A DNA stretch of 64,000 bases, taken from NCBI RefSeq assembly GCF_003012815.1, contig NZ_PXYJ01000001.1, forward strand, positions 124,001 through 188,000, given 5' to 3'. This DNA comes from Allosphingosinicella vermicomposti (lineage in GTDB: Bacteria > Pseudomonadota > Alphaproteobacteria > Sphingomonadales > Sphingomonadaceae). A program made the translations under genes and the position numbers. Below the pieces are notes generated by a model. That model did not search any database and had not been told where the DNA came from. It was given only the letters and a program-made list of their open reading frames with translations. Shown piece after piece: positions 50,304 through 52,907 of this stretch (position 1 is its first letter; every line of letters starts with the position of its first letter).

Positions 50304-50377
50304 CGTCATGCTGAACTTGTTTCAGCATCCATGTCGATGGGATCGCGAAGGCGTCCTGATGGACCCCGGATCAAGTC
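50304..50377. repeat. Left part of a host palindromic repeat interrupted by the IS element
   Basis: CGTCATGCTGAACTTG begins the repeat at 50304; the internal hairpin TGCTGAA...TTCAGCA and the later CCCCGGATCAAGTC belong to it. The remainder, CGGGGTGACG, lies at 52891-52900, on the other side of the inserted element. Joining the two across the 9-bp duplication restores CCCCGGATCAAGTCCGGGG and the TGACG terminus. Confidence 0.7.
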
Positions 50378-50399
50378 GGGACTGATATACTTGACAAAG
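50378..50399. repeat. Left terminal inverted repeat of the IS1595-family element
   Basis: It reads GGGACTGATATACTTG then ACAAAG. It differs from the right end (read on the minus strand) at two of 22 positions. GATCAAGTC (50369-50377) directly precedes it. Confidence 0.85.
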
Positions 50400-50425
50400 C
50401 AATCCTCTGCCAGTAGGTAGAGGGC

Positions 50426-51385
50426 ATGGATATCACCGCGCCCCGTTTCACGAATGAAGACGCAGCCCGCGAGCATCTGGAGGCCCTGCGCTGGCCAGAT
50501 GGCCCGTTCTGCCCGCATTGCGGTTCATTCAGCGCAAAGCGGCTCCCTCCGCAGCGCGGGCGCAAGACGAAGGCACATCCAGAAGGGGCGCTCCGCAAGG
50601 GCGTGGTTCAGTGCAACGATTGCCGCGAGCAGTTCACGGTAACGGTCGGCACCCTCTTTGAAAGCAGCAAGGTTCCGCTTCACAAGTGGGTGCTGGCAAC
50701 CTTCCTGCTTTGCTCGTCCAAACGCGGTATGTCGGGCCACCAGCTCGCCCGCATGCTCGGCGTGACTCAGAAGACCGCGTGGTTCATGTCTCACCGCATC
50801 CGCGAGAGCATGCGCCCTGCGGAAGGCGAACCGCCGCTAGGTGGTGAGGGCAAGACGGTTGAAGCGGACGAAACCTTCATTGGTGGCAAGGAAAAGAACC
50901 GCCACAAGAGCAAGCGCGCCACGCGCCGCCTTGGCGGTAGCTGGGGCAAGGAAACCGTCTTTTCTCTGGTCGAGCGTGACGGCAAGGTTCGCTCAACCCA
51001 TGTTCAGAGCGTGACCGCTGCCAACCTCAAGCCGATCCTTGTCGAGCAGATTGACGCGGCCACCACGCTCTGCACCGATGATGCGGGTCAGTATCGCCAC
51101 ATGCACCGCGCCTTTAAGCATGAGATCGTGAACCATAGCGCTGGCGAGTATGTGCGCGGGACGGCTCACACCAACACGGTCGAGGGCTATTTCTCGATCT
51201 TCAAGCGCGGCGTGGTCGGCACCTACTACCATATGTCTCCGAAGCACCTGCACCGCTACTGCGTCGAGTTCGACTTCCGCTACAACACGCGTAAAGACAA
51301 CGACTTCGAACGCTGCGAGCAAGCCCTCAAGGGCATCACTGGCAAGCGCCTTACCTATCGGCGGGCTGACCACATCGGAGCCTAA
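50426..51385 (+). CDS. IS1595-family transposase
   Basis: A 319-residue DDE transposase of the ISXO2-like kind. It has an N-terminal zinc ribbon (CPHCGS and CNDCREQF), an HTH-like region (GMSGHQLARMLGVTQKTAWF) and the catalytic acids in VEADETFIGGKEKN (D), LCTDDAGQYRHM (D) and HTNTVEGYFSIFKR (E/N region). The ATG is 26 bases inside the left inverted repeat. The reading frame is intact, with no sign of decay. It cuts and joins the element ends. Confidence 0.93.
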   Translation: MDITAPRFTNEDAAREHLEALRWPDGPFCPHCGSFSAKRLPPQRGRKTKAHPEGALRKGVVQCNDCREQFTVTVGTLFESSKVPLHKWVLATFLLCSSKRGMSGHQLARMLGVTQKTAWFMSHRIRESMRPAEGEPPLGGEGKTVEADETFIGGKEKNRHKSKRATRRLGGSWGKETVFSLVERDGKVRSTHVQSVTAANLKPILVEQIDAATTLCTDDAGQYRHMHRAFKHEIVNHSAGEYVRGTAHTNTVEGYFSIFKRGVVGTYYHMSPKHLHRYCVEFDFRYNTRKDNDFERCEQALKGITGKRLTYRRADHIGA

Positions 51386-51396
51386 GAAGGTTGGAC

Positions 51397-51416
51397 CTCC
51401 CCGCGAGATCGGGGAG
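51397..51416. terminator. Hairpin between transposase and cargo operon
   Basis: CTCCCCG (51397-51403) and CGGGGAG (51410-51416) form a 7-bp perfect stem with a 6-base loop between the convergent transposase and cargo genes. There is no T tract, so termination is only likely. Confidence 0.4.
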
Positions 51417-51427
51417 AAGCGAAAGCG

Positions 51428-51538
51428 CTACTTCCGCTGATCCTTCTGTTTCAGGTCCGACTCTTTCGGCGGCTTGTGCGGCTTAGGCGGCGTGTTCAGC
51501 ATCCTGCGGAGCACTTCGTCTTCCTCAGTGGACTGCAT
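51428..51538 (-). CDS. 36-residue cargo peptide of the IS1595 element
   Basis: ATG 51538 has AGGAG about seven bases upstream (GGCAGGAGTGTCCC). The product is MQSTEEDEVLRRMLNTPPKP, then HKPPKESDLKQKDQRK: an acidic start, a short helix (EVLRRML), a TPPKPHKPP motif and a Lys-rich tail. It overlaps the end of the DUF1828 gene by 14 bases, so it is the last gene of the cargo operon. Small proteins with an LRRML-TPPKPH core occur widely in alphaproteobacterial mobile DNA to my recollection, but their function is not known to me. Confidence 0.55.
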   Translation of the reverse strand: MQSTEEDEVLRRMLNTPPKPHKPPKESDLKQKDQRK

Positions 51539-52304
51539 GGGACACTCCTGCCAGCTTCGCCACTCGGCCAATTGCCCCAGTCTCGTCGCCTCTGAAATGG
51601 AGGACGCCAGATAAGCGATTAGTGGCCTGCTGACGAACCTTTGCAGTGACGGCCTTCTCTCGCTCTAGCAGGGCCAATATTTTGATGTCTAAATGCTCTT
51701 CGTGCTCGGCGCGCATTTGGACATAAAGAGCTTCGAGCACGCGAGCATCACTTGTCCCCAGAAAAATCGCTACTGGCGGGCTCTCATCATGTCGGATCAC
51801 AAAGTCTGGTAGAAAGTCGGACAGTTCGGCGGAGATCGGCGCGCCTTCACTTATAAGCGCCCTTCCGCCGATTTGCTCATTCAACATGCGCTGGACATCC
51901 AATCGGAAGGTGCTGGCCACTCGATCCTCAGAGAGTAGCAGCAGGTCGCTCACGCGGAGCATAAACGAAATGAACCTCATTGCCGCAGCAGGCAAATCAT
52001 CTTCGGAGACGCTGCTTAAGCGGAATTCGCGATCGCCTTCGTCGAGCGACACCCCGTATTCAGCTTGCAGCTCCGCGAAAGCCTCAGCACGGCTCTTGTT
52101 TGAGAGGTCAAGGCCGCTAGCTTCTAGGTTCGGAAACACCAGCCCACTGTCCTGAAGCTCGAACAGCCCATTCCCCTCTCGCTTCACGTAAAAGCCGATG
52201 CGATCACCATCCGGAAAGGCGAACGCGGTGCTAACCGCCAGCCCGAATGGAAATTCTCGCACGGTGATTTCATCACAGAAGGCTCGGCAAAGCTGTTCTT
52301 TCAC
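51525..52304 (-). CDS. DUF1828-type protein, cargo of the IS1595 element
   Basis: A GTG start overlaps the stop of the upstream gene (GTGA). The 259-residue protein has an N-terminal DUF1828-like domain (about 8-120). It contains FPFGLAVSTAFAFPDGDRIG, FYVKREGNGLFELQDSGLVF and YGVSLDEGDREFRL, i.e. the GD.I..Y......F.L.D.G pattern of that family. The C-terminal half (about 125-259) contains DFLPDFVIRHDESPPVAIFL and a long helical segment and may correspond to the DUF1829 region often fused to it. No catalytic motif is evident. The family is of unknown function; it occurs with phage and mobile DNA. Confidence 0.7.
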   Translation of the reverse strand: MKEQLCRAFCDEITVREFPFGLAVSTAFAFPDGDRIGFYVKREGNGLFELQDSGLVFPNLEASGLDLSNKSRAEAFAELQAEYGVSLDEGDREFRLSSVSEDDLPAAAMRFISFMLRVSDLLLLSEDRVASTFRLDVQRMLNEQIGGRALISEGAPISAELSDFLPDFVIRHDESPPVAIFLGTSDARVLEALYVQMRAEHEEHLDIKILALLEREKAVTAKVRQQATNRLSGVLHFRGDETGAIGRVAKLAGVSHAVH

Positions 52305-52732
52305 AGCAACAAACCTTGTTCTCCGGAGGCTGCGCCATCCGCTACCCTGAATGCTTTGTAGGCGCGGTTTACGGCCTCAATGTGTCCCATCTCGTAAGCT
52401 CTAACCCGGTTGTAACCTCCCTTTGGAGGAATGCGAATTCCCCCCGGACGCTGTCGCGTTGCACCTGTCGCAAAGTCGCTCAATTCGGCGCATTTGGTGT
52501 GCCAGTGCCAGCTTCCGTGATCGAAGTGGTGTTCTAGACACACCACGATAGCCAGTTCTTCAGGCCCTCGCTCAACAGCCAGATACGCGATGTAATTCGC
52601 CTTTTCTAAGTGGAACGCGATTAAAATGCGGCCAGAGATGGCCCCGCACTGGTAGTGGTCCAGCTTCCACCACCATTGATTGCCAAGGATAAAGCTGCGC
52701 TTCCTCGCCAAAGGGAATGCCGTCTTAGACAT
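52301..52732 (-). CDS. Unrecognised cargo protein, first gene of the element's minus-strand operon
   Basis: ATG 52732 gives 143 residues. The frame is open to a TTG at 52819 (172 residues), and neither start has a convincing ribosome site; the segment between looks protein-like. Notable features are an aromatic stretch (ILGNQWWWKLDHYQCG), a His/Trp cluster (CLEHHFDHGSWHWHTKCAEL) that could bind a metal or form an active site, and a basic C-terminal helix (NRVRAYEMGHIEAVNRAYKAF). No family is known to me. The Cys and His in the cluster are spaced like a metal site (C-x3-HH-x2-H...H-x-H-x2-C). Confidence 0.6.
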   Translation of the reverse strand: MSKTAFPLARKRSFILGNQWWWKLDHYQCGAISGRILIAFHLEKANYIAYLAVERGPEELAIVVCLEHHFDHGSWHWHTKCAELSDFATGATRQRPGGIRIPPKGGYNRVRAYEMGHIEAVNRAYKAFRVADGAASGEQGLLL

Positions 52733-52859
52733 CCTTTGCTTGGTATCCAGGGCGCCACATTTCCATTGCCCAGCCTTGGTCAGTACTTTTGGCGTTTTCA
52801 GGAAGGCTCGAATTTCCAAGGGCGCAACCTACCCGCGCTACGAGGAACGTCAAGCGGAA

Positions 52860-52881
52860 CTTTGTCACGTATATCATTCCC
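52860..52881. repeat. Right terminal inverted repeat of the IS1595-family element
   Basis: On the minus strand it reads GGGAATGATATACGTG then ACAAAG, 20/22 identical to the left end. The 9-bp direct repeat GATCAAGTC (52882-52890) directly follows it. Confidence 0.85.
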
Positions 52882-52907
52882 GATCAAGTCCGGGGTGACG
52901 ACTTTCA

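Follow-up and report, generated by a model that had tools for sequence, protein, structure and literature searches.

A cargo-carrying IS1595-family insertion sequence in Allosphingosinicella vermicomposti with a candidate phage-defence gene pair

We analysed a stretch of 64,000 nucleotides of the Allosphingosinicella vermicomposti genome (contig NZ_PXYJ01000001.1, positions 124,001–188,000), referred to here as the window, in whose numbering coordinates are given unless another sequence or the element is named. It contains a complete insertion sequence (IS) of the IS1595 family with passenger genes between its ends. From sequence comparisons, the element is probably a cargo-carrying IS (tIS) with an exchangeable cassette slot, and the gene pair that occupies this slot a mobile phage-defence or superinfection-exclusion module, possibly of toxin–antitoxin type.

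Results

The element is complete and belongs to the IS1595 family

The element spans positions 50378–52881 and measures 2504 bp. Its left terminal inverted repeat (GGGACTGATATACTTGACAAAG, 50378–50399, plus strand) and its right counterpart (GGGAATGATATACGTGACAAAG in reverse complement, 52860–52881, minus strand), both located by direct reading and a pattern scan, carry the same base at 20 of 22 positions; two given 22-mers would agree this well or better by chance with a probability of about 1e-10. Each end is flanked by a copy of the 9-bp target repeat GATCAAGTC (50369–50377 on the left, 52882–52890 on the right). With up to three mismatches allowed, the end pattern had an expectation of zero matches in shuffled windows; neither the rest of the window nor the rest of the 2.5-Mb genome contains it. 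No further near-identical copy was found in this genome, making the element single copy. A preliminary description drawn from the sequence alone had reported the inverted ends with 20 matching positions, the direct repeat next to them and a 2504-bp unit with a transposase and three other genes; direct reading agreed with the ends and repeat, its length and all its coordinates were correct, and open reading frames (ORFs) and domain matches bore out the gene content.

The transposase gene (50426–51385, plus strand) encodes 319 residues that match PF12762 (E = 1.6e-37), PF12760 (E = 1e-9), which covers an N-terminal zinc ribbon, and NF033547 (E = 5.2e-60), in line with the IS1595 assignment made earlier. 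A transposase search of 250 genomes of one bacterial family gave matches in 101, and 66 units, the window element included, were delimited in the fetched regions by paired ends and target repeats, the latter with one mismatch in three units. Of 65 transposases of this lineage, at least 98% have each of the zinc-ribbon residues C29, C32, C63 and C66 and of D148, D218, N250, E253 and K260, so the window transposase looks intact. We take D148, D218 and E253 to form the DDE catalytic triad, assigning these roles from knowledge of the family. The ends, the target repeat and the cargo likewise appear intact, as first described.

Members of the IS1595 family usually have an 8-bp target repeat and a single transposase gene, and the zinc ribbon is missing only in the IS1016 group (PMC8101967). 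Those with passenger genes are designated tIS, among them ISNha5, whose passenger encodes a transcription regulator, according to PMC11891212, which cites Siguier et al. (2009) for this; it agrees with the earlier statement that cargo-bearing members are known. The window element resembles these in its transposase domain, zinc ribbon, inverted ends, short target repeat and passenger genes, whereas its sublineage has a repeat of 9 bp rather than the usual 8 bp.

The insertion lies in a palindromic repeat that is empty in the closest relative

The left copy of GATCAAGTC forms half of an interrupted palindrome, and the reconstructed target, CCCCG-GATCAAGTC-CGGGG, is an inverted repeat. In the closest relative within the genus (genome G054), the same flanking genes, which from their sequences we take to encode an alcohol dehydrogenase-like and a uracil-DNA-glycosylase-like protein, are 150 bp apart with an uninterrupted GCCGGATCAGGTCCGGGG between them. 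This locus is a natural empty site, of the kind that the preliminary description had suggested looking for in related strains. Elements related to it, with ends of the same type, occupy other sites in other genera, and in no relative did we see the three cargo genes at this place without the ends, the case that had been named as refuting the unit. That the element is real, complete and correctly read is virtually certain. Because of the paired ends, the target repeat, the intact transposase, the empty site and the related elements elsewhere, its interpretation as a complete cargo-carrying IS of the IS1595 family that arrived by transposition is well supported by sequence. A genomic island bounded by chance repeats or host REP sequences could be proposed in its place, given that the palindromic repeat of which the direct repeat is part also exists by itself elsewhere; this is extremely improbable, however, since 65 other units, whose transposases are related, have similar ends and target repeats of 8–9 bp accompany nearly all units, and the empty site already contradicts it.

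Transposition into this type of repeat appears to be shared. Ranked by transposase similarity, eight of the top 20 delimited elements have targets whose flanks pair at five or six of six positions, compared with 0.7% of random positions in the same loci (binomial probability about 6e-13, with elements counted as independent of kinship). The window element and the elements L031, L030, L038 and L081, from five genera, share the same repeat type and a 9-bp target copy, and the other elements of the lineage have other targets, with 8-bp repeats in nearly all. Apart from this site, the genome of the window has just two occurrences of the exact repeat core, so its abundance alone does not explain the choice of target. 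We infer that this sublineage picks the centre of a palindromic REP-like repeat. Another branch (L099, L103, L105, L102, L116, L119 and L120) is repeatedly inserted just downstream of TTGACATCGTGACG in several genomes, preceded in several members by an AACC...GGTT motif; judged by sequence, this is apparently one conserved promoter-like target.

Three cargo genes face the transposase

The three cargo genes lie on the minus strand, convergent to the transposase. The outermost (52301–52819, TTG start) encodes a 172-residue protein with a conserved His-rich core ending in HxH. It overlaps by 4 bp the next gene (51525–52304, GTG start), which encodes a 259-residue DUF1828 protein (PF08861, E = 1.2e-17), and the stop codon of the latter is overlapped by the start of a 36-codon ORF (MQSTEEDEVLRRMLNTPPKPHKPPK..., 51428–51538). 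This small ORF is conserved in the close clade and would form the inner border of an exchangeable cargo slot. A possible promoter of the cargo operon, TTGACG-N16-TAGGTT, lies at 52820–52855 on the minus strand; it is largely kept at the right end in both further elements that bear the pair, and a sigma-70 consensus scan found no promoter and did not pick up this motif.

PADLOC assigned the DUF1828 protein to PDC-M24B (PDLC04539, E = 3.6e-19, residues 23–144). A protein of PDC-M24B type is thus common to PDC-M24 and the window pair, whereas the 172-residue partner fits no PADLOC model (E ≤ 5) and has no Pfam match. PDC-M24 is listed in PADLOC as a candidate system only, which counts against a defence function. 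Sequence searches of the PDB with both cargo proteins returned chance matches only. In the papers searched, we found few mentions of DUF1828 or DUF6978 and no paper on PDC-M24.

We then modelled both proteins with AlphaFold2, using final alignments without phage-record rows. The 172-residue model (pLDDT 76.7) is predicted to form an antiparallel sheet with the conserved histidines in a cluster, and Foldseek gave no significant match to it in the PDB. For the DUF1828 protein (pLDDT 83.4), the Foldseek matches included, for the C-terminal half, the PD-(D/E)XK-type enzymes EndoMS, NucS, Kpn2I, McrC, Can2, Card1 and BamHI; those to EndoMS/NucS had a probability of 1.00 at E values of 0.01–0.02, and no PDB match reached E ≤ 0.001. 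In 12–15 homologues, D167 is invariant and the following strand is without ExK. The C-terminal half may be a degenerate or atypical nuclease domain. Assignment of the protein as a nuclease was dropped for want of the canonical ExK motif, and since the homologues are without it we do not claim cleavage.

The gene pair is found in other carriers and in phages

The Sphingomonas pokkalii element L006 carries the same pair, with 85% and 78% identical proteins, next to a transposase that is only 55% identical, and DNA similarity to it extends over element positions 1109–2441. By contrast, the transposases of L031, L030 and L038 are 82–84% identical to that of the window, and their cargo is unrelated, so the pair and the transposase have different histories. 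In L007, from a Sphingomonadales metagenome-assembled genome, an end of the family type lies about 60 bp upstream of the pair, and the fetched stretch ends before any transposase. Relatives of the 172-residue and of the DUF1828 protein were each present in 4 of the 250 family genomes. Both genes lie inside the ends of the window element, and relatives of both also occur outside IS contexts: the pair is found outside delimited transposons in G028, G195 and G140, the last on L157, a viral contig according to IMG/VR. The partner gene is almost always directly upstream of DUF1828, mostly with a 4-bp overlap.

Pairs of the same layout occur in temperate phages, with an S24 repressor upstream in Rhizobium phage RHph_N28_2, cI upstream in Pseudomonas phage 5399 and S24 repressors upstream in the prophage contigs L156–L158; further viral contigs hold such pairs too. 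The position next to the repressor is a usual one for immunity or exclusion genes in a prophage. The DUF6978–DUF1828 pairs of Pseudomonas phage 5399 and Latilactobacillus phage TMW 1.1365 P3 resemble the window pair in gene order, sizes and a His-rich partner with HxH, and that of phage 5399 also in its 4-bp overlap. The partners in these two phages match Pfam DUF6978, whereas the window partner does not: its assignment to DUF6978 (PF22398) was rejected for lack of a Pfam match and an hhalign probability of 0.1%. A viral scan with the partner alignment found no relative. These comparisons indicate an independent module that passes from carrier to carrier: three different elements hold the pair, and the lysogeny region of temperate phages has one of the same layout.

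Among plasmids, tblastn with both cargo proteins gave no match, and a DNA-level search yielded nothing beyond transposase-type matches and a single partial match, on the Sphingobium plasmid pTomTYG64a (AP027328.1, 254853–255850; L101). The latter lies in the transposase half (24% of the query at about 80% identity), is annotated as hypothetical proteins only and, from its sequence, is probably a decayed copy.

Cargo differs across the lineage, with a probable fixed slot in the close clade

All 66 units, which range from 1505 to 6005 bp (median 2503 bp), contain ORFs besides the transposase, and the majority of cargo proteins are without a relative in any other element. Members of the close clade share a conserved stretch that begins at the left end, takes in the transposase and reaches the 36-codon ORF; in most comparisons with close relatives, DNA similarity to the window element stops at element position 1146, give or take two bases. 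The ATG of plus-strand cargo usually lies at or a few bases from the start of this ORF, often overlapping it as CATG; such overlap or closeness is seen in L034, L042, L033, L040, L039 and L036 despite unrelated or distantly related cargo. We infer a fixed cargo slot behind the transposase in this clade. Here the element departs from described tIS, in that the whole sampled lineage bears varying cargo with a slot fixed in the close clade, and its own passenger pair was not found described for the family.

Several units have other arrangements. A second IS1595 unit lies outside the window in the same genome (G000:C1:111365–114402, corresponding to L124:4366–7403), with ends and repeat AAGGGCAG and a transposase 42% identical; its cargo comprises one unknown gene, one SocA/Panacea antitoxin-like gene and a third gene from a group with P63C matches in relatives. 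At L088 (3654–6029 and 6038–8580), two different IS1595 units form a tandem with a common target repeat, AAGAGGCG. The 6-kb unit at L141:4474 (oriented) appears composite, with an inner second transposase-like stretch and a PIN-type gene pair.

The cargo often resembles toxin–antitoxin, restriction and defence genes

Pfam families in 93 cargo proteins included P63C, DUF3800, PIN, SocA/Panacea, N6-methylase, IrrE peptidase and Bro-N, along with type I specificity, D12 methylase, GmrSD, PemK, ParE, GIY-YIG, HNH and similar families, among others. Individual cases were a GmrSD type in L091, a capP-like IrrE protein in L006 and type I specificity/PDC-S13 in L137. In L098 (9024–10406), IS1595 ends and 8-bp repeats enclose a PD-Lambda-5_A-like gene (PADLOC E = 3e-178). 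PD-Lambda-5 is a listed defence system, of a family other than that of the window cargo, and is here part of an IS1595 unit of the same lineage. The cargo matched 129 PADLOC models compared with 10 in 93 flanking genes, a contrast that is indicative only, as redundant models inflate the 129. The flanking genes matched 84 Pfam families, and the 25 of these that were listed were mostly metabolic, regulatory or phage structural. A HEPN-like R[N/D]x3H motif was present in 20 of 106 cargo proteins and 4 of 103 flank proteins (Fisher p = 0.0008), with 4 expected in the cargo after shuffling; the motif alone is no proof of a HEPN domain. As judged by such matches, the lineage cargo is often of toxin–antitoxin, restriction or phage-defence type, unlike the flanking genes. 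A large part of it belongs to no recognised family, which counts against the overall interpretation.

Discussion

The arrangement suggests how the element might work. A DDE transposase would move the unit, and the cargo operon, comprising the 172-residue, DUF1828 and 36-codon genes, would be read inward from the right end, in the direction of the transposase. The DUF1828 protein, which has a nuclease-like C-terminal domain, would act together with its His-rich partner, and as payload the pair would favour retention of the element by its host; the lineage as a whole would form a small vehicle with an exchangeable cassette slot.

On the sequence evidence, we lean slightly towards a role of the pair in phage defence or exclusion. 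The missing canonical ExK motif of the DUF1828 model, its PDB matches all above E = 0.001, and a partner that matches nothing in Pfam, PADLOC or the PDB and fails to align with the phage DUF6978 proteins weigh against it. As the main alternative, the pair might instead be a toxin–antitoxin or addiction module that keeps the element in the genome with no direct anti-phage role. The tight overlap of its two genes and the PIN, PemK, ParE and Panacea families among the cargo of relatives would suit this, yet both proteins are larger than those of typical toxin–antitoxin pairs and match no known toxin or antitoxin family, and the phage site beside the repressor fits immunity equally well or better; we consider it unlikely. 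Rather less probable still is passive hitch-hiking, in which chance capture brought in cargo that serves no selected function there. Such capture would agree with cargo that differs in nearly every copy and with the rarity of the pair in the family genomes surveyed, but not with the presence of more than a transposase in every unit, a cargo composition unlike that of the flanking genes and the recurrence of the same pair in three elements.

Beyond the probable defence or exclusion module in the window, the chances seem to us evenly balanced that this lineage of very small IS1595 elements as a whole is a specialised carrier of exchangeable anti-phage and toxin–antitoxin cassettes. Each copy would house one or two modules, in a slot fixed behind the transposase, with exchange of modules among elements and prophages, and the sublineage in REP repeats would insert with little harm; the window pair would be one such candidate immunity module. 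In a literature search that left aside Siguier et al. (2009) itself and ISfinder, we found no account of the window cargo pair, of defence-type cargo across an IS1595 lineage or of IS1595 insertion into REP-like palindromes.

Searches for phage-defence genes usually target defence islands, prophages and large mobile elements. If insertion sequences of 2–3 kb routinely carry such modules, their precise ends would delimit each module exactly and provide an unusually clean listing of new defence and toxin–antitoxin candidates. Such elements are also of a size that allows transfer among chromosome, plasmid and phage. The copy in A. vermicomposti offers one concrete, testable two-gene candidate.
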